Below are positions 3,797 to 17,489 of a stretch of 29,438 nt of DNA, piece by piece. Numbering within the stretch: the stretch's first letter is position 1; the number at the start of each line of letters is the position of its first letter. The notes under the pieces were generated by a model, which worked only from the letters and a program-made list of their open reading frames with translations, ran no database searches and was not told the DNA's origin. The stretch is from a virus, in IMG/VR virus record IMGVR_UViG_3300023178_003941, positions 1 to 29,438 of that record. One strand, written 5' to 3'. The position numbers were made by a program, and so were the translations under genes.

Positions 3797-4132
3797 ATGA
3801 GACCATTATGCTTATGTGGACACCGTCCTGCTGCTATAAATTATAAAAAAGGCAACAAAACTTACTATCGTAAACTCTGTGAAAGTTGTTTGCGCAACGG
3901 GTTAGGTAATGGAATACCTAAATGGAAACAAGCAGGATATACAAAAAAAGATACTTGCGAAAAATGCGGATTTCAGTCAAGACATCCAGAACAGTTTAAT
4001 GTATTTCATATTGACGGAAATTTAGAAAACTGTCGACCTAGCAATCTAAAAACTGTGTGTGCTAATTGTCAGCGTCTAGTTCAAAAGGACGGGGTGCGTT
4101 GGAAGCAAGGTGACCTAGTCCCCGATTTCTAA
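3797..4132 (+). CDS. Degenerate HNH-like / treble-clef zinc protein (111 aa)
   Basis: Small zinc-binding protein of a type found in T4-like marine phages. Residues 5-31 hold one set of likely ligands (C5, C7, C28, C31) around PAAINYKKGNKTYYRKLCESC-like sequence. Residues 54-91 resemble the HNH fold: C54xxC57, HIDGN at 71-75, PSNL at 81-84, and C88xxC91. In active HNH nucleases the histidine before HIDGN and the one after the last CxxC are normally conserved; here they are F70 and Q92. This suggests a zinc fold without nuclease activity, or with altered chemistry. The start at 3797 is the only in-frame ATG near the N-terminal Cys cluster. Its last 71 bp overlap the convergent dNMP-kinase-like gene. 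The biological role is unknown. Confidence 0.7.
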   Translation: MRPLCLCGHRPAAINYKKGNKTYYRKLCESCLRNGLGNGIPKWKQAGYTKKDTCEKCGFQSRHPEQFNVFHIDGNLENCRPSNLKTVCANCQRLVQKDGVRWKQGDLVPDF

Positions 4133-8475: not shown

Positions 8476-8923
8476 CATAATTATTAGTATGAGTGATATA
8501 GTTTGTAGCGGCGCTTTATTTTATAGTCTAGATACGCAAAGATTTTTATTTTTACATAGATCTAACGGAAAACGTAGTAATAACGTATGGGGTCTTGTTG
8601 GCGGCACAAATGAAGGCGCTGAAACTCCTTGGGAAGGGTTAAGACGAGAAATTACTGAGGAAATTGGTGAAGTAGAAATTAAAAAAACTATTCCACTCGA
8701 AACCTTTGTATCAAATGACTCTAAATTTCATTTTCATACATACCTGTGTTTAGTAAACACAGAATTTCTTCCTACACTAAACAGTGAACATGATGGGTAT
8801 TCTTGGTGTAGCTTTGGCATGTGGCCAAAACCTTTACACTATGGACTACAAAATACATTAAACAAAAAAGTTAATCTTAAAAAATTAGAAACAGTATTTG
8901 AAGTAATAAATTTACTTGACTAA
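8450..8923 (+). CDS. Nudix hydrolase
   Basis: Hydrolyses a nucleoside diphosphate linked to another group; the substrate cannot be read from sequence. The protein has a nearly complete Nudix box: GTNEGAE, then seven residues, then REITEEIGE (G-x5-E-x7-RE-U-x-EE-x-G), with Glu instead of an aliphatic residue at the last place. It continues with a PLETFVSNDSKFHFHTYLC strand and the EHDGYSWCSFGMWPKPLH ending seen in other marine phage Nudix proteins. I chose ATG 8450 because GAAGGAG lies 9 nt upstream, giving a 26-bp overlap with gp15; ATG 8489 (MSDIVCSG) matches the domain start better but has no Shine-Dalgarno. It precedes the ADP-heptose operon and could clean up nucleotides or an ADP-sugar, which is a guess. 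Confidence 0.85.
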   Translation: MAPGDLHTNIIISMSDIVCSGALFYSLDTQRFLFLHRSNGKRSNNVWGLVGGTNEGAETPWEGLRREITEEIGEVEIKKTIPLETFVSNDSKFHFHTYLCLVNTEFLPTLNSEHDGYSWCSFGMWPKPLHYGLQNTLNKKVNLKKLETVFEVINLLD

Positions 8924-8944
8924 CACTCTGTTTTAATGTATAAT
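8916..8944 (+). promoter_or_regulatory. Sigma70-type promoter of the ADP-heptose operon
   Basis: TTGACT (8916-8921), a 17-bp spacer and TATAAT (8939-8944) form a near-perfect host promoter. The -35 overlaps the Nudix stop codon. The +1 expected seven bases after the -10 is 8951, which is the A of the hldE ATG, so the mRNA would be leaderless. No Shine-Dalgarno precedes hldE. Confidence 0.78.
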
Positions 8945-8950
8945 TGTAGT

Positions 8951-10090
8951 ATGAAAGTCTTAGTTATTGGCGATATAATCATTGACAAATACATTACAGG
9001 AACTTCAACTAGATTGAGTCCTGAAGCACCTGTGCCTGTTGTTAATCAACAAGAAGTATGGGAACAATTAGGCGGCGCTGCACTAGTATATCAAAATTTA
9101 TTAAGTTTAGGCGTTGATGTAGAATTATTAGATTTGTCATATCCAAAATGTATTAAGACTCGTGTATTATGTGACGGACATTATGTTACACGTATAGACC
9201 AAGATCATTTTACTAATGGCCAAGGTGTACTTGAAATAATTTGTGCAAAAGATTTTAGTACATACGATTATGTTATATTAAGTGATTATAATAAAGGTGT
9301 ATTAGAATACTCAAACAATATTATAGAACACATTAATCAATATGATTGTAAAGTTATTGTAGATCCTAAACGTCATGTTAGTTATTATGACGGTGCTTGG
9401 TTAGTTAAACCTAACAAAAAAGAATTTGAAGATTTAGGATTTACAAGTTGGACAGGTAACATAATTATTACTGCTGCAAGTCAACCTACTATTGCAGAAA
9501 TAGATAAAACATATTATACCGTTGATGTAGAACAAGTTGAAGTTAACGATGTTACTGGAGCCGGTGATTGTTTTTTAGCAGCATTTGTTTATGCGCTTAC
9601 AAAAGGATACGATTACGAAAGTGCAATTAAACTTGCTGTACAAGGATCAACTGAAAGTGTTAAACATGTAGGCACATACATTCTTAACGAAAAAGATCTA
9701 AAGAAGCGTGTAGTTTTTACTAACGGCTGTTTTGATATATTACACAAAGGGCATCTTACACTGCTAAAAGAAGCACGTAGTTTAGGCGATAAACTTGTTG
9801 TAGGACTTAATAGCGATGGTAGTGTAAAACGTTTAAAAGGCGAAACTAGGCCATTTAACGATCTTGAAACAAGACGCGAACAGCTAGAACTTATTCCGTA
9901 TGTAGACGAAGTTGTTGTTTTTCATGAAGACACTCCATATGATTTGATTAAAGAAATAAAGCCAGACTTAATTGTTAAAGGCGGTGACTATACTGTAGAA
10001 GAAATTGTAGGACACGATTTAGCACCTGTGCATATTATACCTACAGTAGAAGGTTATAGCACAACTAATATTATAGAGAAAAGCAAATGA
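8951..10090 (+). CDS. hldE: Bifunctional heptose-7-phosphate kinase / heptose-1-phosphate adenylyltransferase
   Basis: Catalyses two steps of ADP-heptose synthesis: phosphorylation of D-glycero-D-manno-heptose 7-phosphate at C1, then, after GmhB removes the 7-phosphate, adenylylation to ADP-D-glycero-D-manno-heptose. Residues 1-250 are a PfkB/ribokinase domain: VIGDIIIDKY (5-14), LGGAALV (40-46) and DVTGAGD (200-206) with catalytic D206. Residues 250-379 are a cytidylyltransferase-like domain: TNGCFDILHKGH (257-268, HxGH), LNSDGSVKRLKG, LIVKGGDY and the C-terminal GYSTTNII that closes E. coli HldE. At 379 aa it is about 100 shorter than E. coli HldE (477), mostly through trimming of the kinase half. 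Start 8951 fits homologues and the promoter; ATG 8936 lies in the promoter. Its stop overlaps the next gene (ATGA). Confidence 0.92.
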   Translation: MKVLVIGDIIIDKYITGTSTRLSPEAPVPVVNQQEVWEQLGGAALVYQNLLSLGVDVELLDLSYPKCIKTRVLCDGHYVTRIDQDHFTNGQGVLEIICAKDFSTYDYVILSDYNKGVLEYSNNIIEHINQYDCKVIVDPKRHVSYYDGAWLVKPNKKEFEDLGFTSWTGNIIITAASQPTIAEIDKTYYTVDVEQVEVNDVTGAGDCFLAAFVYALTKGYDYESAIKLAVQGSTESVKHVGTYILNEKDLKKRVVFTNGCFDILHKGHLTLLKEARSLGDKLVVGLNSDGSVKRLKGETRPFNDLETRREQLELIPYVDEVVVFHEDTPYDLIKEIKPDLIVKGGDYTVEEIVGHDLAPVHIIPTVEGYSTTNIIEKSK

Positions 10091-10638
10091 AGTACTTAGT
10101 AATTGACGATGCATTAGAACACAACGATGCTATAAATTTAAAAAACTTATTTGAATCTGAGGAGATATTTTGGAAGACAGGTCAACCTGTTCCTCAAAAA
10201 TTTCAAACAGAAGGCACAAGTCTTTACCAATTACAATTTTTTCACACAATTTATAAAAATTTAAATTGGACTACTAGCCCTGAAATAGGTGAAGCAATTA
10301 TTCCTTTAATTAATAGATGTCACACTTATACATTATTAAGATTAAAAGTTAATTTAACTCCAAGAGCAGATATTTTAACCACACACGGATTTCATATAGA
10401 TTTAGATCCTCCTCATGATTGTGCATTAACTGCTGTATATTATTTTAACGATAACAATGGATGGACTGAATTTAAAGATGGTACTAAGATTGAAAGTAAG
10501 TTTAATAGACTTTTAGTGTTTCCAGCTAAACAAGAACATTCAGGTAGTACACATACTGATGCACTTTCAAGGATTGTAGCAAATATTAATTTTATACCAC
10601 ATCCAGAAAATAAAGAATTTACAGAGTTAACAAAATGA
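10087..10638 (+). CDS. 2OG-Fe(II) dioxygenase (prolyl-4-hydroxylase-like fold)
   Basis: Predicted non-haem iron oxygenase using 2-oxoglutarate and O2, usually for hydroxylation. The facial triad is visible as H103-x-D105 (FHIDLD) and H151 (QEHSG), with R162 (SRIVANINF) placed to bind 2-oxoglutarate. A VYYFNDNNGWTEF strand segment and LLVFPAK complete the double-stranded beta-helix pattern. It is 183 aa, a usual single-domain length. It sits inside the ADP-heptose operon with 4-bp overlaps to hldE and to hldD, so its substrate may be the sugar or its acceptor. Such oxygenases are also common elsewhere in marine T4-like phages, so the link to heptose is inference. Confidence 0.82.
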   Translation: MKYLVIDDALEHNDAINLKNLFESEEIFWKTGQPVPQKFQTEGTSLYQLQFFHTIYKNLNWTTSPEIGEAIIPLINRCHTYTLLRLKVNLTPRADILTTHGFHIDLDPPHDCALTAVYYFNDNNGWTEFKDGTKIESKFNRLLVFPAKQEHSGSTHTDALSRIVANINFIPHPENKEFTELTK

Positions 10639-11444
10639 AAATTTTAATTACAGGGTTTGAAGGGTTTATTGGTAAAAATTTAAAATCATTCTTAGATAAA
10701 GATCACGAATTATTTGGATATGAATGGGATACAGAGTTTTTGCCTGAAGTAGAAGGTTTTGATTGGGTAATTCATCTTGGTGCAATTAGTGCAACTACAG
10801 AACGTGATATAGATAAAGTAATGCTTCAAAACTATGAGTTTTCCAAATGGTTGTTTAATGAATGCAATACTAAGGGTGTAAATTTTCAATATGCATCAAG
10901 TGCTAGTGTATATGGATGTAATACAGACTTTACAGAAGATGCTCCTAAACAACCACAGAGTTATTATGCTACAAGCAAATATCTATTTGACAGATGGGTA
11001 ATGCAACAACAACACAAAGTAATTGTACAAGGATTTCGTTATTTTAATGTATATGGCCCTCATGAAGATCACAAAGGCGACCAAGCAAGTCCTGTGACAA
11101 AGTTTTTTAAACAGGCTAAAGAAAACAAAGTTATCAAGTTATTTGAAAATAGTGATAATTACAAACGTGATTTTATATATGTTGGCGATTGTTGTAATAT
11201 ACATCGTTATCTATTAGGCACTAAAGAAACAGGTATTTTTAATATTGGAACAGGTATTGCAACAAGTTTTCAAACTGTTGCAGAATTAGTTGCTAAAAGA
11301 TATAACGCTAAAATTGAAACTATACCAATGCCAGAAGAACTTAAAGGTCAATATCAAGAATATACTTGTGCAGACATACAAAAATTAAGTAATGTAGTAA
11401 ATATTAATTTTACAAAATTAGAGGAATTTATCAATGGAAAATAA
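10635..11444 (+). CDS. hldD: ADP-L-glycero-D-manno-heptose 6-epimerase
   Basis: Converts ADP-D-glycero-D-manno-heptose into ADP-L-glycero-D-manno-heptose, the donor for LPS inner-core heptosyltransferases. It is an extended short-chain dehydrogenase: GFEGFIG at 7-13 binds NADP, YASSASVYG covers the catalytic Ser region (86-94), and Y111-x3-K115 is the catalytic pair. The match to E. coli HldD (RfaD) is specific rather than general: GFRYFNVYGPHEDHKGD (133-149), LFENSDNYKRDFIYVGD (169-185), IFNIGTGIATSFQTVAE and ELKGQYQEYTCADI all have direct counterparts. It has 269 aa against 310 in E. coli. It overlaps the preceding and following genes, so it belongs to one tightly coupled operon. Confidence 0.92.
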   Translation: MKILITGFEGFIGKNLKSFLDKDHELFGYEWDTEFLPEVEGFDWVIHLGAISATTERDIDKVMLQNYEFSKWLFNECNTKGVNFQYASSASVYGCNTDFTEDAPKQPQSYYATSKYLFDRWVMQQQHKVIVQGFRYFNVYGPHEDHKGDQASPVTKFFKQAKENKVIKLFENSDNYKRDFIYVGDCCNIHRYLLGTKETGIFNIGTGIATSFQTVAELVAKRYNAKIETIPMPEELKGQYQEYTCADIQKLSNVVNINFTKLEEFINGK

Positions 11445-11829
11445 AACAGAACCTACACGTCTAAGTGGTGCAGTACAAAAAGGCTGGGGTTACGAATTAA
11501 TTTGGGCAACCAATGATCAATACTGCGGAAAGATTATGTTCTTTAATAAGGCAGGTAATAAAACAAGTATGCACTTTCATAAAGAAAAAGATGAAAGTTG
11601 GTTTGTAAACAGCGGAAGTTTTAAAGTTAGATATATTGATACTAAGGATTCAATGCTATATGAAAAAGAATTAAACGAAGGAGATGTTTGGCATAATCCT
11701 CCTTTACTACCTCATCAATTAGTAGCAACAAGAGACGAGTCTAGCATTACTGAAGTAAGTACACCAGATAGTGTTGAAGATAATTATCGTATTGGTCCAG
11801 GGGATAGTCAGTCAGCGCCAAATGAGTAG
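11434..11829 (+). CDS. Cupin protein, phosphomannose-isomerase-like
   Basis: Single-domain cupin of 131 aa, probably metal-binding. Cupin motif 1 is exact: G41-x5-H47-x-H49-x4-E54-x6-G61. Motif 2 is looser (GDVWHNPPLLPH, with H94 as the fourth ligand; Leu replaces the usual Gly). The KGWGYELIWA opening and the C-terminal EVSTPDSVEDNYRI resemble the cupin domain of type II mannose-6-phosphate isomerase/guanylyltransferases and their stand-alone relatives. GAGG lies 8-9 nt before ATG 11434, and the start overlaps hldD by 11 bp. As the operon lacks GmhA, this aldose-ketose-isomerase-like fold is a candidate for that step or for another sugar isomerisation or epimerisation; this is inference only. 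Confidence 0.78.
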   Translation: MENKTEPTRLSGAVQKGWGYELIWATNDQYCGKIMFFNKAGNKTSMHFHKEKDESWFVNSGSFKVRYIDTKDSMLYEKELNEGDVWHNPPLLPHQLVATRDESSITEVSTPDSVEDNYRIGPGDSQSAPNE

Positions 11830-12472
11830 TACTAGAATTGCATGGACTGAAGGTTACACAGATACTAGATTAGACACTGAGACCTTCTATAATGAAACTA
11901 ATATTGCACCAAAATGTGTAATTGGGTTAGACCGTGACGGAGTCATTAACGTTGACCGAGGAACATATACTTGGAGGGTTGAAGATTTTGTTCCTATTGC
12001 TGGTAGCTTAGAAGCAATGGCAAAACTTCGAAATTTAGGTCACAAAATGGTTATAATTACAAATCAAGCAGGCATTAATAAAGGACTATATACTCCTGCC
12101 GATGTAGAACGTGTACACGAATATATGTTTCAACTATTAGGCGAAGCAGGTTGTAAAAGTATAGATGCACTATTCTACAGCGAAAGTAATTTAAGAAGTG
12201 ATATATTTGCAAAGCCTAATATTGGAATGTTTAAACGATGCGAAAATGAAGTTAAATATATCAAATTTAAAAACGGATATTTCGTAGGTGATAAAATTTC
12301 TGATCTTAAAGCAGCATTTAAAATTGGTGCTAAACCGGTATTAGTACGCACAGGACACGGTGAAGAAACAATAAAAGAACTAAACAAATTTGCAAATCAA
12401 AAGATAAAGAAAAAGACTATTATTTTTGATGATTTACTATCTTTTGCAAATTGGATAGAATCTAAATCGTAG
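11822..12472 (+). CDS. gmhB: D-glycero-D-manno-heptose 1,7-bisphosphate 7-phosphatase
   Basis: Removes the C7 phosphate from heptose 1,7-bisphosphate between the two HldE reactions. HAD motifs are all present: DRDG at 37-41 with nucleophile D37 and acid/base D39, T80-N-Q (IITNQAGINKG), K131 and GDKISD at 156-161. The general GmhB/HisB-N pattern (DRDGVINVD, GSLEAMAKLRNLGH, NIGMFKR, KPVLVRTGHG) is clear. In E. coli GmhB a zinc loop carries CxH and CxC ligands; here the same stretch (LFYSESNLRSDIFAKPN) has no cysteine. The ATG at 11822 overlaps the cupin stop by 8 bp; earlier in-frame starts give an unrelated extension. It ends 11 bp inside the convergent oxygenase gene. Confidence 0.88.
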   Translation: MSSTRIAWTEGYTDTRLDTETFYNETNIAPKCVIGLDRDGVINVDRGTYTWRVEDFVPIAGSLEAMAKLRNLGHKMVIITNQAGINKGLYTPADVERVHEYMFQLLGEAGCKSIDALFYSESNLRSDIFAKPNIGMFKRCENEVKYIKFKNGYFVGDKISDLKAAFKIGAKPVLVRTGHGEETIKELNKFANQKIKKKTIIFDDLLSFANWIESKS

Positions 12473-13106
12473 CACCAGTTTCTAAAACTATATTAAACGA
12501 CAAACTAATACGATCAAACTTAGTTCTATTTTCTTTAACACTGTGATCTAGATAGCTAGGCCACATAACTATTCTTCCTTGTTCAGGAAAAAACTCATTT
12601 TCGTGTGCATATGTAGATCCAATAGGGTTACATTTTAATGCTTTAAGAGCATTTCTAAAAACTATATTACCATCTTGACCATTTGTTTTAAACCAATATA
12701 CTCCGCTTATATGATTAGTTCCGTGATCATGTAAATGGGCATGTTGTCCCGGATTAGTTAAGGTTAACCAAGATGTACTAATTGCTGCTCGATAGTTTTC
12801 TTTAACATTCATGTGTACCATATAGTTTCCACAATGATGAAGAATAGATTGTTTAACATTTTTTAATTTTTCTGATGTTATTATACATTCTCTAAAATTA
12901 CCTCTATTTGATAATTGATGCGTATTTGAATTCCAATCAGTATTTTGTCCCCATTTATTTTCTTCGTATAGTTTATCAACTACCGTTTGAAGATCTTGTT
13001 GCATACCTTCGTATTCACCGCCTTCTATTTGATGTGTATACAACGGAGTAGGAAATAAACTTATTATTTGACCTTCTACTGGAACTTCAAGATTAGGCTC
13101 TATCAT
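12462..13106 (-). CDS. 2OG-Fe(II) oxygenase of the marine-phage type (PF13759-like)
   Basis: Second predicted iron/2-oxoglutarate oxygenase in the cassette. The N-terminus has the LFPTPLYTHQI opening usual for this family. The core reads QHAHLHDHGTNHISGVYWF (metal His around 124-128), then WPSYLDHSV with H188 and FDRISLSFNI with R199 for 2-oxoglutarate. At 214 aa it is full length. The start codon lies inside the 3' end of the carbamoyltransferase gene (14-bp overlap), so the two are translationally coupled. The substrate is unknown; in this setting it may hydroxylate a glycan or make the hydroxyl to be carbamoylated, which is inference. It is unlike the first oxygenase (10087-10638) in sequence, so the two are not recent duplicates. 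Confidence 0.85.
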   Translation of the reverse strand: MIEPNLEVPVEGQIISLFPTPLYTHQIEGGEYEGMQQDLQTVVDKLYEENKWGQNTDWNSNTHQLSNRGNFRECIITSEKLKNVKQSILHHCGNYMVHMNVKENYRAAISTSWLTLTNPGQHAHLHDHGTNHISGVYWFKTNGQDGNIVFRNALKALKCNPIGSTYAHENEFFPEQGRIVMWPSYLDHSVKENRTKFDRISLSFNIVLETGATI

Positions 13107-14907
13107 TGTGGTCTATCCTTACTATCATTTGAGTTTTAGGGAAATACAAATAGTTAATTCCTGAATTATATAATGTACGCATAGCATCATCAATAGTTTC
13201 AACTAACGGCTCTCCACCTAAGTTAAAACTAGTATTAAATAATGCAGGTATTCCTGTTTGTGATTTAAACTCATTAATTAAATTATACCAATGTTCGTTT
13301 TGTTCTTTAGTAACAGTTTGTATTCTGCAAGTTCCGTCAACGTGTATTACAGCAGGTATCTTTTCTTCAACACCTGGCTGACAATTTACTGCATACATCA
13401 TACTAGGTGATTCTTTCATACCGCGCAAATCAAACCATTCATGAACATCATCTTGTAATACTGATGCTGCAAATGGTCTAAAATATTCTCTTTTCTTAAT
13501 TAAATTAACAAAATCTTTTCCGTCTGGGAATGTTGGGTCAAACATTAAACTTCTGTTACCTAATGCTCTAGGACCGTTTTCGCATCTTTCTTGAAATAAT
13601 GCTACAATATTTTTTTCTCTAATAATGTTAATAACATCTTTATAGCTAATGTTATTTTCAACAACACCGCCGTACTTATTAGCACAGTTTGTAATTTCTT
13701 CCTCAGTAATATTTTGAATAGGACCTAAAAATAAGTTTTCATTTTTTTCTCTAACTCTATTATCTTTAGTAGTTTTATAGTAATGATAAAATGCTGCACC
13801 TATTGCTGTACCTGCATCTGTAGAAACAGGTTCAACATATAAATTTGTACCTTCTGGTAAATGTTTTAAATAGAAATAGTTAGCAACACAGTTTAATCCG
13901 TAACCTCCACTTACAACTACATTTTTATTTCCAGTTTTTTCAATTGCTTTTAATATTAAATCAAGTACTTTTTGTTGAGTTTCAGTTTGTACATTATATG
14001 CCATATTTCTGCGAGACTCTAACAATGTTAAATCTTCGCTTGCTAGTAATTCTTCAATTCGTGCTATTTCATCTTTATCTTCTTCAGATACTCCCATCCA
14101 TAATTCGTGAGGATTATATTTTCTATCGTGTAACTCTGGATACAATGCTTCATTTACTATAGCACCGTTTGGATATGTTGGTAGTATAATATCTCTATTA
14201 GCACTAACATTATCAAATATTTTTGGTGCTTTATTAGGTTGCCCGTATGGAAACAATCCCATAGTCTTTCCAGCTTCAATACTATGCCAACCGCAATATT
14301 GAGTTACTGCTTCATATGCTTTGACAATACCTGCTTTGTCGTCAACTATTATTTCCATATTTCCGTCATTTAAATATTCAGTTGCCCAAGGACCATTGCC
14401 TCCAAAGTGTTTATATAACTCAGCAAAGTTATCAGGATAAGATGCATAGTATATACTTTCTACTTCCCACATTGTTTGTTGATCGTGTCGTTTAGCAAAA
14501 GTACCAGCGCCGTCAACAATAACAACGTTTGCTTCATCAAATCCTGATCTATAAAAGGAACAAGCAGCATGATTTCTGTGATGTTGATCCCAGTACTCAA
14601 CAACTTGAGGATGGTTCCTACCTTGATTTGGATCAATTAATTTAAGTTTACGTGCTAAAGAAGTATACGGATCTTCAGCAGTATAATCTGTAAGATTTTC
14701 GTCAGCGTGTGTATGTGAAATAACTAGATAATCAATTTTGTCAGTATACTCTAATATTTTAATAATACTAGCAAACGGAGTACCGTCATATTTTTGTCTT
14801 GTTAATCTTTCTTCTTCAATTGAAAATACAATCTCACCATCTTTTAATAAACAAACACCTGCATTGTGTCCTCTAGCAATTCCTGCTATGTATCCTGTTT
14901 TATTCAT
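13093..14907 (-). CDS. O-carbamoyltransferase (NodU/CmcH/TobZ family)
   Basis: Transfers a carbamoyl group from carbamoyl phosphate, through carbamoyl-adenylate, to a hydroxyl of the acceptor. The N-terminal Kae1-like domain shows GIARGHNAG (9-17), HHRNHAACSFYRSGF with the metal-binding His pair (109, 113) and D132-GAG. The ATP-binding part has VSGGYGLNCVAN (332-343). The C-terminal YrdC-like domain has FQERCENGPRALGNRSL (438-454), YFRPFAASVL and NTSFNLGGEPLVET. At 604 aa it is full length with all signature motifs. Known relatives act on nodulation factors, antibiotics and, in Pseudomonas aeruginosa (WapO), on LPS-core heptose. Its ATG overlaps the stop of the GT9-like gene. The acceptor is inferred to be a heptose, but DNA or another glycan is possible. 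Confidence 0.92.
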   Translation of the reverse strand: MNKTGYIAGIARGHNAGVCLLKDGEIVFSIEEERLTRQKYDGTPFASIIKILEYTDKIDYLVISHTHADENLTDYTAEDPYTSLARKLKLIDPNQGRNHPQVVEYWDQHHRNHAACSFYRSGFDEANVVIVDGAGTFAKRHDQQTMWEVESIYYASYPDNFAELYKHFGGNGPWATEYLNDGNMEIIVDDKAGIVKAYEAVTQYCGWHSIEAGKTMGLFPYGQPNKAPKIFDNVSANRDIILPTYPNGAIVNEALYPELHDRKYNPHELWMGVSEEDKDEIARIEELLASEDLTLLESRRNMAYNVQTETQQKVLDLILKAIEKTGNKNVVVSGGYGLNCVANYFYLKHLPEGTNLYVEPVSTDAGTAIGAAFYHYYKTTKDNRVREKNENLFLGPIQNITEEEITNCANKYGGVVENNISYKDVINIIREKNIVALFQERCENGPRALGNRSLMFDPTFPDGKDFVNLIKKREYFRPFAASVLQDDVHEWFDLRGMKESPSMMYAVNCQPGVEEKIPAVIHVDGTCRIQTVTKEQNEHWYNLINEFKSQTGIPALFNTSFNLGGEPLVETIDDAMRTLYNSGINYLYFPKTQMIVRIDHNDRA

Positions 14908-15839
14908 ACAGATTTAACTCCAACTGAACTTTTAATATCTTTAACAATCTGATTAATAGTTTTATCGTCAAGTTTCATTAAGTATTCATTATTTTTTTCA
15001 ATTCTAATATCATAAGACATTCTAATAGGCGAGTACATTTTTTTGCCTTTTCCGTTATCAATAATTTTCATATGTTTATTATTAGGATATGAAGTATTTT
15101 CTGGATATGTACTTCCAATAACAACTGTACTAGGTTTTCCTAGTGCATATGCAAGATGTTGTCCTACTGAATCACATCCTAAAAAATAGTCTGATGAGTT
15201 AATAATAGATGCCCATTGCAACAAACTAATTTGTTCTGGAACAATAATCCCTATAGAATTCTGTAATGGAATTTTAATATCTCCCATCATAATAACAGCA
15301 AAATCTTTGCTTAACATCTCTATTATTTTTAATAAGTCTTCTACTTCAAATGACCTTCCACTTTCATCAATAATATATTGACCTTCAAGTTTAGCAGCCG
15401 ATCCAAATGGCTGTATAACTATTGTTTTATCTTTCTTTGTATGTGCTTTTGCTTCTGTAATGAGATTATGTCCTGCTAGGTGATCTATCTTGCTGATAAA
15501 AAGATTGTATTCTTTCACAGGAGGAACTTCTTCTGGCGGCGTATCATAGTTAATTAACATGTCAAATGCTTGCACAAGATTTGCTCTTTGAGTAAAGTAT
15601 GCATTAAGTCTATACGGCTCCGGTGATATTACTTCTCTGTCTTGTAATTTTTCAAAAAGATTTGGATGATCATGAGGATATACATTATGCATAATTGTTT
15701 TGTTTAACAAACATAATTCAAGCCATCCTTCAACAATAATCATTGCTGTTGGGTCAACATTTTTTATGTAATGTTCTAGAGCTGGAATAGCGCATAATAC
15801 TCTACCGGCGCCACCGTTAATAAAGAAGGCTTTTTTCAT
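14904..15839 (-). CDS. GT9-family heptosyltransferase-like protein
   Basis: Predicted transferase of the family that uses ADP-L-glycero-D-manno-heptose (WaaC/WaaF/WaaQ). The opening FFINGGAGRVLCAIPALEHY matches the GT9 pattern x-GD-x-L-x3-PAL. The C-terminal half has VIQPFGSAAK (141-150) and GCDSVGQHLAYALGKPSTVV with the DSxxxHLAxALGxP donor-site motif (223-236), then GSTYPENTSYP. At 311 aa it is close to normal GT9 length. The Asp that follows Gly in the first motif (D13 in E. coli WaaC, the proposed catalytic base) is replaced by R13. The chemistry or donor may therefore differ. ATG 15839 has AAGGAT upstream and leads the three-gene minus operon with the carbamoyltransferase and oxygenase. 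Confidence 0.75.
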   Translation of the reverse strand: MKKAFFINGGAGRVLCAIPALEHYIKNVDPTAMIIVEGWLELCLLNKTIMHNVYPHDHPNLFEKLQDREVISPEPYRLNAYFTQRANLVQAFDMLINYDTPPEEVPPVKEYNLFISKIDHLAGHNLITEAKAHTKKDKTIVIQPFGSAAKLEGQYIIDESGRSFEVEDLLKIIEMLSKDFAVIMMGDIKIPLQNSIGIIVPEQISLLQWASIINSSDYFLGCDSVGQHLAYALGKPSTVVIGSTYPENTSYPNNKHMKIIDNGKGKKMYSPIRMSYDIRIEKNNEYLMKLDDKTINQIVKDIKSSVGVKSV

Positions 15840-15871: not shown

Positions 15872-15879
15872 TATTTATT
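15872..15879 (-). promoter_or_regulatory. Possible late promoter of the GT9-carbamoyltransferase operon
   Basis: Minus strand has AATAAATA about 33 bp before the GT9 ATG, matching the T4-like late element except for its first base. A weaker sigma70-like pair nearer the gene (TTGTAA, 16 bp, TACAAT) would start on the ATG. Which one is used cannot be decided from sequence. Confidence 0.35.
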
Positions 15880-15900: not shown

Positions 15901-15929
15901 AAAAAAAGGCTTGTTGCCAAGCCTTTTTA
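15901..15929 (-). terminator. Rho-independent terminator after the fibre operon
   Basis: GGCTTG (15908-15913), loop TTGC and CAAGCC (15918-15923) form a stem extended by A/T pairs. On the minus strand it is followed by seven U residues. It lies 12 bp past the stop of the fibre-chaperone gene and separates the fibre operon from the GT9 operon. The five T residues on the plus strand make it partly bidirectional. Confidence 0.85.
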
Positions 15930-15940
15930 AACTATTAAGT

Positions 15941-16648
15941 TTAGCTACAACCGTCTGGTAGTTGATCAAGTGCTGCTTGATCTTCTGCTGTTCTATCTTC
16001 AATCCTAATAATATGAACATCAGGATCATCAAAGTCTGGATCTCCTACTTGATCAGGTGGATGGGGGAATCTAATTAGGTGATTAGGAACTATTGCATAG
16101 TTTACCGGAATGTCACGTAATTTTTGTCTGTAATCAAGCCACTTCTGTTTCAGTTCAGCTGGCATATCTTCTGAAATTTTTCCGTCACTTTCTGATAATA
16201 GCTCGTTTCTTCTTTCTCTTATAAAATCGTCTGATTGTTCCTTAACATACTCTAAAAATTTAAGTGGTGCAGTATAATCCTCTACAATTGATATTTCGTC
16301 AAACACCATTATAATGTCAGTCGGATCACTAACAATAGTGTTTGGATCTTCTTCAGGTCCAATTGCTACTTCGTATTCTTTTGGAACCCAATGAGAATGA
16401 AGAATCATAATTTTAATATAGTCTTCGTCTGTTTCAGGAATAAATTCTACTCTTTCAATGTTAACAGCAAGTGCTTCAATTGGTGGTTCATCTTCTGGAG
16501 CCCATGTCTCCATAATCCTTCCTGTTTCATCATCAAGATATAAAATTAACTTTTCAGGTCCAATATATTCTTGGGTACTAGTTTTATTCAATTCTGATGA
16601 CGTACCATATAATGTATCAGGAATGGGATATGTTAATATTTTTGGCAT
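15941..16648 (-). CDS. Tail-fibre assembly chaperone-like protein
   Basis: Probably assists folding or attachment of the fibre proteins encoded just upstream. It is 235 aa and acidic. The C-terminal part has RNELLSESDGKIS, then AELKQKWLDYRQKLRDIP and IRFPHPPDQ, which is the W-x2-YRQ-x-LRDIP pattern of phage tail-assembly-chaperone (APC/Tfa-like) domains. The N-terminal half (TYPIPDTLYGTSSEL, IMETWAPEDEPP, a run of acidic beta segments) I do not recognise. AAGGAG precedes ATG 16648. It is the last gene before the terminator and follows the Cys-rich tip protein by 13 bp, the normal place for a fibre chaperone. It may alternatively be a minor structural component. Confidence 0.68.
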   Translation of the reverse strand: MPKILTYPIPDTLYGTSSELNKTSTQEYIGPEKLILYLDDETGRIMETWAPEDEPPIEALAVNIERVEFIPETDEDYIKIMILHSHWVPKEYEVAIGPEEDPNTIVSDPTDIIMVFDEISIVEDYTAPLKFLEYVKEQSDDFIRERRNELLSESDGKISEDMPAELKQKWLDYRQKLRDIPVNYAIVPNHLIRFPHPPDQVGDPDFDDPDVHIIRIEDRTAEDQAALDQLPDGCS

Positions 16649-16661
16649 AATAATTTACTCC

Positions 16662-17489
16662 TTAACTATATGATACCTTGACTAAGCCGCCAGCGCCCCA
16701 GCTACCCCAACAAGCATTTCTTGATGCAGTAACATGTCCTGGGCCACCGCCTCCTGGAAATACCGAGTGTGCTGAACAGCAAGCTAAGTTGCCTGTACAT
16801 GCATCTTTACCGCTTACACCGTGTACTGACGAAAATGGTCCAGTTGGCGTACCAGCAACACTAAACATGTGTGAACAGCAACTAACACCTTTATACATTG
16901 ACCCAGAAGTTCCTCTAAATTCAATGTCGCCGCCAAATGTTGCACTGTTACAATAACAGTTAATCCAGCCTGCGTTGTATTGACCTTTGTTACATTGTGT
17001 ATTACCTAAATAACAGTTATAACAACCGCTCACTGTGTCAAAGTTTGTTGAACCTCCCATGCCGCCTTGAGCACAGAAGTTACTTAATCCTGAACCCTGA
17101 ACAAAGGACTTACAGCCATGTCTACAGTTAACACCGCAACGGCAACAACAACTACAACTTGACGTTCCGCCTGCACACATTCTGTAACCGCAGCCAGCAG
17201 CAAAGTTTCCTGCTGCTTTTCTTAAATGTTTTGAAGTATAGTTTCCGCCGTTTCCGCCGACTCCAAAATCGTAGTCGCCTCCTGACGCTCCGCCTGGGCC
17301 ACCGCCTGACAAAATTTCAAATTTAATTGAAGTTACCCCTGCTGGCACCGTCCAATAACAACAGCGTCCGCCGTTTGTAACATTCCAATGACTTCCGTTA
17401 TATACGTAAAATTCATGGTAATCAGTTAATGTTTCTTGTACAGTATTGTCAGGAAACTTAATGCCGACGTTATTAATTTCAGTTGCCAT
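16662..17489 (-). CDS. Cysteine- and glycine-rich fibre tip / adhesin-like protein
   Basis: Probable receptor-contact protein of the tail fibre. It is 275 aa with 23 cysteines, among them C112, C114-116, C118, C122 and C126, and CC pairs at 43-44, 204-205 and 237-238. Gly-rich runs (SGGGPGGASGGDYDFGVGG, PGGGGPGHV, WGAGGLVKVSYS) recall the glycine-rich domains of phage fibre-tip adhesins. The N-terminus (NNVGIKFPDNTVQ) is a typical fibre start, and TVPAGVTSIKFEILSGGG introduces the Gly-rich domain. It starts 2 bp after the stop of the 738-aa fibre with AAGGAG inside that gene's end. Whether the Cys bind metal or form disulphides after release is unknown. No signal peptide is present. Confidence 0.7.
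   Translation of the reverse strand: MATEINNVGIKFPDNTVQETLTDYHEFYVYNGSHWNVTNGGRCCYWTVPAGVTSIKFEILSGGGPGGASGGDYDFGVGGNGGNYTSKHLRKAAGNFAAGCGYRMCAGGTSSCSCCCRCGVNCRHGCKSFVQGSGLSNFCAQGGMGGSTNFDTVSGCYNCYLGNTQCNKGQYNAGWINCYCNSATFGGDIEFRGTSGSMYKGVSCCSHMFSVAGTPTGPFSSVHGVSGKDACTGNLACCSAHSVFPGGGGPGHVTASRNACWGSWGAGGLVKVSYS

Follow-up and report, generated by a model that had tools for sequence, protein, structure and literature searches.

A predicted ADP-heptose gene block and a GT9-like operon beside a cysteine-rich tail protein in a virus genome record

Introduction

ADP-heptose is synthesized in E. coli by the HldE-GmhB-HldD pathway. In Pseudomonas aeruginosa, heptose is carbamoylated by WapO. TibC-type autotransporter heptosyltransferases form dodecamers and possess an iron-binding C-terminal finger, and SunS-type S-glycosyltransferases attach a sugar to a peptide cysteine. 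Here, we analyzed the IMG/VR virus record IMGVR_UViG_3300023178_003941, a whole record of 29,438 bases, read here as a marine phage (hereafter, the window). Its plus strand carries a block of heptose genes (the hld block) with the same reactions as the E. coli pathway by homology, and its minus strand a convergent operon for a GT9-like transferase, an O-carbamoyltransferase, and a 2-oxoglutarate (2OG)-Fe(II) oxygenase. We give an even chance to the proposal that the hld block makes ADP-heptose and that the late operon places heptose, possibly carbamoylated, on a tail adhesin, perhaps on its cysteines.

Similar phage genes have been described. In the available text of a 2010 comparison (PMC3037559), T4-GC 304, 305, 307, and 308 occur together with three others in three cyanophages and are named lipopolysaccharide (LPS) genes; whether the cluster consists of functional genes or "stuffer DNA" was left undecided there. 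The accessible portion of PMC7824862 describes kinase, nucleotidyltransferase, cupin isomerase, epimerase, and carbamoyltransferase parts and proposes O-antigen change or a secondary metabolite, and that of PMC7029224 describes glycosyltransferases and rfaE in pelagimyophages. The gene set is known in outline from cyanophages, as "LPS genes" or as a metabolite cluster. New here are two promoter types, an invariant arginine (Arg) in place of Asp13 of WaaC, and the presence of cysteine (Cys)-rich tail proteins beside the GT9-like gene. A link between phage GT9 and Cys-rich tail proteins was not found in the open-access PMC literature, outside which most subscription papers lie.

Results

Cysteine-rich tail proteins beside the GT9-like gene

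On the minus strand of the window, fibre genes are followed by the genes for a Cys/Gly-rich protein, a tail-fibre chaperone, the GT9-like transferase, the carbamoyltransferase, and the 2OG oxygenase, in this order (Table 1). We call the Cys/Gly-rich protein an adhesin, which is a reading of its place and composition. Gene order was surveyed around 110 GT9 genes from 172 sources; removing redundancy left 45 genes under a loose limit and 25 under a strict one. The carbamoyltransferase gene directly followed the GT9-like gene in all loci reaching that far (44/44, loose; 24/24, strict), and a chaperone gene was located within four genes upstream in 38/44 (loose) and 19/25 (strict). A protein with at least 4% Cys was encoded within four genes upstream of GT9 in 20 of 24 non-redundant loci, compared with 10 of 294 other open reading frames (ORFs) as the background. 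The four loci missing such a protein each have a single upstream gene.

The same association was obtained when the search was led by the adhesin. We considered the best 80 of 506 relatives and, using a more distant query, the best 80 of at least 218. Among the former, GT9 and carbamoyltransferase genes were both present in 62/62 loci with room for them (15/77 were too short); among the latter, GT9 was present in 64/64 and the carbamoyltransferase in 63/64 (15/79 were too short). GT9 was thus found in 126 of 126 testable loci among the best-scoring relatives, located 66 to 2175 bases after the Cys-rich gene across the two sets. The 62-locus and 64-locus sets contain 14 and 29 non-redundant GT9 sequences, and 17/62 and 64/64 loci, respectively, were not near-identical to earlier GT9 loci. 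A search led by GT9 gave 80 loci, 70 of them new, and 47 were tested after removal of 23 near-duplicates. In 42 of these 47, a neighbouring gene encodes a protein of no fewer than 15 Cys and at least 2% Cys (background, 13/372). Of the five loci without such a neighbour, three encode a Cys-rich protein at another place in the locus (on the opposite strand in two cases), and the remaining two have just one gene upstream. Named phages searched by tblastn with the Cys-rich protein gave no match, perhaps as a result of low-complexity filtering.

GT9-like matches were found in 55 named records (23 cyanophage or marine, 31 Vibrio, and one Aeromonas). In Vibrio phages D505, K479, and SBP1, the GT9-like gene lies directly before a tail protein gene, with a small gene on its other side. 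SBP1 is a member of Schitoviridae according to its record, and D505 and K479 were grouped with it by gene order (N4-like phages). In Aeromonas phage HJ05, the GT9-like gene directly follows the gene for a 559-amino-acid protein with 23 Cys; HJ05 gp49 had no relative in the phage collection except itself, so the comparison of Cys counts was confined to the N4-like phages. Neither TIGR02199 nor PF02543 matched in D505, K479, SBP1, or HJ05, as expected if their hosts supply ADP-heptose. The tail proteins of D505, K479, and SBP1 contain 41, 39, and 41 Cys, respectively. Related proteins in PG11, 1.261.O, 1.004.O, 2.044.O, D63, and AD45 contain 4, 7, 9, 1, 2, and 4, and no GT9 match was obtained in these six records. 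They were chosen from 50 records with less than 60% identity, a set in which SBP1 itself appears twice; AD45 aligns with the query solely over a different segment. Matches in phages of Gram-positive bacteria were left out of the Cys comparison, as a different domain was matched. Because D505 and K479 are 89% identical, two GT9 lineages are compared with six lacking the gene.

The N4-like tail proteins at L245:8745-11522, L182:9735-15005, and L332:8736-11024 (L numbers denote surveyed loci) contain 41, 41, and 58 Cys. At the aligned positions, a mixture of residues (A, T, S, E, D, and others) is seen in relatives lacking a GT9-like gene. Such Cys richness is unusual in proteins assembled in the cytoplasm.

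GT9-like transferase and carbamoyltransferase

The window GT9 protein matched PF01075 marginally (23.0 against a cut-off of 22). Its predicted model (predicted template modeling score, pTM, 0.86) gave Z scores of 21.6 with WaaF (1psw), 21.5 with a Veillonella GT9 protein, 19.1 with WaaC, and 18.8 with TibC, the last of which was compared by fold only. Other rows of the fold search were three plant NDH-subunit rows (Z 18-19) and a remainder at 12 or below. Searches of the PDB by phmmer and hmmsearch gave only chance matches to ubiquitin-like, ribosomal, and nucleotidyltransferase proteins. When the GT9 set was compared by hhalign with single E. coli sequences, probabilities were low (2.6-9.3), and WaaC and WaaF aligned only in the C-terminal D..H region. 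The window protein resembles WaaC, WaaF, and TibC in fold and in the D..H motif of the C-domain, and differs from them in lacking a PDB sequence match, in its location among tail genes, and in one residue: Asp13 of E. coli WaaC, which we take to be the catalytic base (a literature search gave no confirmation), is replaced in the same register by Arg13. A GG-G-R motif with this Arg is present in 25/25 non-redundant GT9 members, and the three Vibrio members and the HJ05 member likewise have the Arg. The D505 transferase, used as a lone query, found no relatives among viral contigs.

The carbamoyltransferase belongs to the same two-domain family as TobZ, GdmN, and NodU. Carbam_trans_N (PF02543, 92.4 bits) and Carbam_trans_C (PF16861, 191.3 bits) both matched above their cut-offs, and the closest structure was 7xb6 (174 bits across the whole sequence, chiefly in the C-terminal half). 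Unlike the genes for those enzymes, the window-type gene follows a GT9-like gene, as in the 44 non-redundant loci above. The likeness to WapO concerns the proposed type of product and is drawn by description only.

Predicted genes for ADP-heptose synthesis

Genes on the plus strand are arranged in the order NUDIX, HldE, 2OG-oxygenase-like, HldD, cupin, and GmhB. HldE, HldD, and GmhB had been named in an earlier note on this DNA, as had the convergent GT9-like, O-carbamoyltransferase, and oxygenase operon. ORFs and family profiles agreed with both claims, and both gene sets lie at the coordinates given there. In HldE, PfkB and CTP_transf domains are fused within one frame, with GAGD and GCFDILHKGH readable in the sequence. 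It scored 294.2 bits (1.5e-87) with NF008454, lower than the cut-off of 521, and also fell under the cut-offs of TIGR02198 (4.3e-51; cut-off 345) and TIGR02199 (2.8e-50; cut-off 181.5). Its closest structures were 5x9q for the nucleotidyltransferase and 4e84 for the kinase. Comparison with relatives makes 8951 the more likely start of HldE, and for GmhB a start at 11822 is more likely. HldD scored 246.4 bits with TIGR02197 (cut-off 274.6), and the closest solved structure was E. coli HldD (1eq2, 1.1e-51), with which it aligns at YxxxK and the HKG lysine, presumably the catalytic residues. GmhB scored 136.2 bits (8.4e-40) with NF006506 (cut-off 178) and was closest to 4pnh (3.7e-23). All three proteins lie under the NCBI curated cut-offs, with bits that far exceed those of other families on the same proteins.

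Compared with the E. coli pathway, the phage kinase domain is shortened, and SIS-type GmhA (PF13580) was found in 0/20 related records, which are possibly partial, and in 0/10 named phages searched whole. A 131-amino-acid cupin that had been absent from the earlier gene list lies in the hld block. Turning sedoheptulose-7-phosphate into D-glycero-D-manno-heptose-7-phosphate is chemically the mannose/fructose isomerase reaction on a sugar one carbon longer, which makes the cupin a candidate for heptose-7-phosphate isomerization. It may thus replace GmhA as the phosphoheptose isomerase. H47, H49, E54, and H94, which we take to be the usual cupin metal ligands, are invariant in 23/23 aligned rows, and in loci L157 and L132 the cupin is fused to an HldE-type nucleotidyltransferase. 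Among the fold neighbours, CapF, KdgF, quercetinase, and the phosphomannose and D-lyxose isomerases are all close; the best profile likeness was to oxalate decarboxylase.

Six cyanophage genes, at L002:13113-13457, L005:13092-13415, and four equivalents, are labelled "phosphoheptose isomerase" (T4-GC 306). We rejected T4-GC 306 as GmhA. By eye, the proteins look small and HAD-like (DIDGTI...GKP...DDKG), which makes the label doubtful and probably wrong, and the two tested had no Pfam match. In a 186-kb record, L173:1504-2265 encodes a nucleotidyltransferase fused to a cupin that by eye resembles type II phosphomannose isomerase.

Promoters of the two gene groups

Upstream of HldE lies a sigma70-like promoter (Table 1). 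Promoter-like sites in the region numbered 46 against 43.0 (sd 6.5) in shuffles, which is chance level by count. Of 25 non-redundant regions upstream of HldE, the window included, 22 contain the pattern TTGAC-N18-20-TA[TC]A[AG]T (shuffle mean, 0.00). Because of this conservation we take the site as real, in agreement with the host-type promoter of the earlier note. The distance from the end of the -10 hexamer to the HldE ATG is 5-7 bases in 23 regions and 6 in the window (start 8951), so HldE transcripts may be leaderless. As the -35 hexamer lies partly within the stop region of NUDIX, coding constraint may add to its conservation; in L083, where the upstream gene is not NUDIX, both hexamers are retained. 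L022 and L045, in which HldE lies within a gene run, lack the promoter, as does the cyanophage-type L170.

A late-type motif, ATAAATA, was found before GT9 in 25/29 upstream regions (shuffle mean, 1.96; shuffles preserved base composition only), in most cases between -37 and -43. It was found before HldE in 0/25, before the carbamoyltransferase in 0/23, and before HldD in 0/36, with the start codons of the HldD, Cys-rich, and chaperone genes taken as the first in frame. The motif is depleted in the window (6 against 16.7 expected). Four of its sites precede the tail tube, neck, GT9, and Cys-rich genes, a fifth is at the start of the 5708-6841 gene, and the sixth is inside a fibre gene. The T4 consensus TATAAATA occurs 0 times in the window. 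From these motifs, the hld block of window-type phages looks driven by the host polymerase and the GT9 operon looks late. The split is limited to window-type phages, because four cyanophage-type GT9 loci lack ATAAATA and carry their hld genes after GT9.

Two other candidates were dropped. A sigma70-like site before the window GT9 gene was present in 1/27 regions, namely the window alone, and the sigma70 pattern in 2/29. Co-transcription of GT9 with the fibre genes in the window was discarded because a terminator-like hairpin and the late motif intervene.

Gene order in relatives and cyanophages

The cluster of P-SSM2, S-SSM7, and S-CAM1 (T4-GC 302-308) shares with the window the GT9-like, carbamoyltransferase, HldE (as halves), cupin, and HldD-like genes and a location near tail-fibre genes. 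In the cyanophages, however, HldE is encoded in two parts, the position of the window GmhB is taken by a small HAD-like protein, and the hld genes continue the GT9 run, with HldD convergent. In P-SSM2 and S-CAM1, the GT9-like gene, carbamoyltransferase, HldE halves, HAD-like gene, and cupin lie in a row on the same strand, and no gap between them exceeds 11 bases. The cyanophage records name the carbamoyltransferase and pathway genes, and the GT9-like gene is "hypothetical" there. S-SSM7 additionally encodes a halogenase and one more carbamoyltransferase. L041, L063, and similar window relatives have a giant convergent fibre gene where the hld block ends, and GT9 lies past the fibres.

We searched 22 HldE records, four with GT9 already known nearby and 18 chosen for having none nearby. 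GT9 was located further off in 6 of these 18. Among those of at least 32 kb it was found in 5/7, and both misses have HldE about 2 kb or less from the contig end. A converse search covered 14 GT9 records, all possibly partial, of which 13 were chosen for having no HldE nearby and one was a positive control. TIGR02199 matched in two; in one of these, G002 (186 kb), the matching protein is another nucleotidyltransferase, which is fused to a cupin.

Discussion

In the proposed mechanism, ADP-heptose would be supplied by the host or, where host supply may fall short, by the hld genes of the phage. The GT9-carbamoyltransferase-oxygenase operon, with a late-type promoter like several virion genes, would be expressed late in infection. 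Its GT9 protein would transfer heptose from ADP-heptose onto the phage's own tail adhesin, and the carbamoyltransferase would add a carbamoyl group to the heptose. The simplest account of the gene associations is that the GT9-like family acts on tail proteins. If so, phages would synthesize their own nucleotide sugar for the receptor-binding apparatus, a step hitherto ascribed to host LPS; the GT9 fold would have a new class of acceptor, and the Cys content of tail proteins would be a marker of post-translational modification. The cluster left open in the available text of the 2010 comparison (PMC3037559) would also be explained.

We also consider a narrower proposal, in which the GGxGR GT9-like family functions as a cysteine S-heptosyltransferase of phages, with tail adhesins as its substrates, and the cupin is a new, non-homologous phosphoheptose isomerase. 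Many adhesin cysteines would be heptosylated, and the heptose would then be carbamoylated in jumbo phages and cyanophages. The invariant Arg would then be accounted for, as a thiolate would have no need for an Asp base. Cysteines as attachment sites would likewise explain why Cys content tracks the GT9 gene and why Asp13 may be dispensable. In this full form we regard the proposal as rather unlikely.

Several points weigh against adhesin heptosylation. With Arg in place of Asp13 of WaaC, the family might be inactive or catalyze another reaction, and the Cys-rich proteins could use their cysteines for metal or disulfides. The N4-like comparison includes only two independent GT9 lineages. ATAAATA is rare before the proposed acceptor gene (6/36 Cys-rich genes; shuffle mean, 2.12) and before the chaperone (2/22), and it is absent in four cyanophage-type GT9 loci (L002, L004, L166, and L168). 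GT9 and carbamoyltransferase occurred with no TIGR02199 match in 12 of the 14 GT9 records, in which the sugar may differ. The earlier note had held that its reading would fall if this gene pair occurred routinely without hld genes in relatives with a different known acceptor; the first part is seen in those 12 possibly partial records, and no alternative acceptor is known. Finally, late timing and adhesin linkage would fit an enzyme that masks the receptor.

The latter is the basis of host LPS remodelling, in which carbamoylated heptose is placed on the LPS or O chain of the host and re-adsorption or superinfection is blocked. An adhesin and a receptor-masking enzyme could travel together, as binding and masking must match. 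WaaC and WaaF are among the closest folds, and similar pelagimyophage and cyanophage genes are taken as O-chain or LPS genes in the accessible parts of PMC7029224, PMC3037559, and PMC7824862. Remodelling leaves unexplained the lone GT9-like gene that N4-like and Aeromonas phages carry inside their run of tail genes, as well as the restriction of Cys richness, among related tail proteins, to phages with a GT9-like gene; Asp13 of WaaC is also missing from the family. We consider it doubtful. The genes and pathway families of the earlier note stand, but its single acceptor, the LPS core, is unsupported in the form given: the GT9 family accompanies Cys-rich tail proteins in four phage groups, and the three N4-like Vibrio phages and the Aeromonas phage have GT9 with no HldE or carbamoyltransferase match. 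Nor is the single moveable unit that it proposed supported, since window-type phages carry promoters of different types before the hld block and the GT9 operon, and the fibre region can separate the two.

That separation has also been considered as a sign of two unrelated systems, with the hld block feeding the host surface and the GT9-like protein either modifying tail proteins with another sugar or acting as a non-catalytic tail chaperone. Separate promoters, GT9 without HldE in some records, and Arg replacing Asp in the family are consistent with this. It fits poorly with the single gene run in cyanophages and with GT9 being located further off in 6/18 HldE records (5/7 of those of at least 32 kb), and we find it quite improbable. 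Still another possibility is that the cluster makes a secondary metabolite or small glycoside in the form of a sugar compound bearing a carbamoyl group, which has been proposed for the S-SSM6a cluster; the available text of PMC7824862 contains such a proposal. The carbamoyltransferase is close to TobZ, GdmN, and the novobiocin enzymes, and the halogenase and second carbamoyltransferase of S-SSM7 point in the same direction. No halogenase or acyl/peptide assembly family was found in the 20 scanned window ORFs, and the link of GT9 to Cys-rich tail proteins in all testable loci among the best-scoring relatives would be unexpected for a diffusible compound. This possibility appears very improbable.

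Gene layout and other features of the window

Twenty window ORFs were scanned, ten with Pfam, NCBIfam, and PHROGs and ten with PHROGs only. Sheath, neck, and fibre genes surround the cassette, so its location in a structural region was correctly described before. The gene overlap claimed for the cassette was also observed: all seven joints from HldE through GT9 overlap by 4-14 bases. NUDIX and HldE do not overlap (gap of 12 bases with the listed HldE start, 8936, or 27 with 8951), and 101 bases separate the chaperone from GT9. NUDIX is present in most HldE loci. The oxygenase-like gene after HldE is missing from this site in many relatives; phrog_274, to which it belongs, is labelled "DNA endonuclease V", yet the window member resembles a 2OG-Fe(II) oxygenase.

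Table 1 Predicted features of the heptose gene region and its flanks in the window.
Feature	Position	Strand	Evidence and remarks
NUDIX hydrolase	8489..8923	+	PF00293 5.9e-14; start 8489; immediately 5' of hld block
Sigma70-like promoter	8916..8944	+	TTGACT-N17-TATAAT; upstream of HldE
HldE, shortened heptose-7-phosphate kinase fused to heptose-1-phosphate adenylyltransferase	8951..10090	+	NF008454, TIGR02198, TIGR02199
2OG-Fe(II) oxygenase-like protein	10087..10638	+	PF13640 26 bits (cut-off 27); phrog_274
HldD, ADP-heptose 6-epimerase	10635..11444	+	TIGR02197; 1eq2
Cupin, candidate phosphoheptose isomerase	11434..11829	+	Cupin_2; 131 amino acids
GmhB, heptose-1,7-bisphosphate phosphatase (HAD)	11822..12472	+	NF006506; 4pnh
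2OG-Fe(II) oxygenase	12462..13106	-	PF13759 3.7e-18; phrog_81; last gene of GT9 operon
NodU/TobZ-type O-carbamoyltransferase	13093..14907	-	PF16861, PF02543; phrog_1601 8.9e-171
GT9-fold transferase with GGxGR	14904..15839	-	Predicted model, fold search
ATAAATA late-type promoter motif of GT9 operon	15872..15878	-	Conserved upstream of GT9
Hairpin with T tail, terminator-like	15901..15928	-	By eye, absent from scan list; between chaperone and GT9
Tail-fibre assembly chaperone (Phage_tail_APC)	15941..16648	-	PF16778 3.1e-09
Cys/Gly-rich tail adhesin-like protein, proposed acceptor	16662..17489	-	23 Cys in 275 amino acids; phrog_4205 1.3e-50, no function label there

The nearest relatives of the window sheath and neck proteins were jumbo phages of Agrobacterium, Sinorhizobium, and Pseudomonas (PA5oct-type); cyanophages were not the nearest. 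psbA was found in 0/20 related records, and megablast of 8,352 bases against named phages gave no match. The cassette is common, with 558 HldE relatives matched in viral contigs. Loci L174, L175, and L176, from Rhodobacteraceae or Euryarchaeota bins of metagenome-assembled genomes, carry the cassette or its GT9-carbamoyltransferase part together with tail genes and are probably phage contigs within these bins. An HNH endonuclease is encoded at 3797-4132 of the window, with the sheath gene on one side and a deoxynucleoside kinase-like gene on the other, and HNH look-alikes occupy the equivalent position in L041, L063, L029, and L362.

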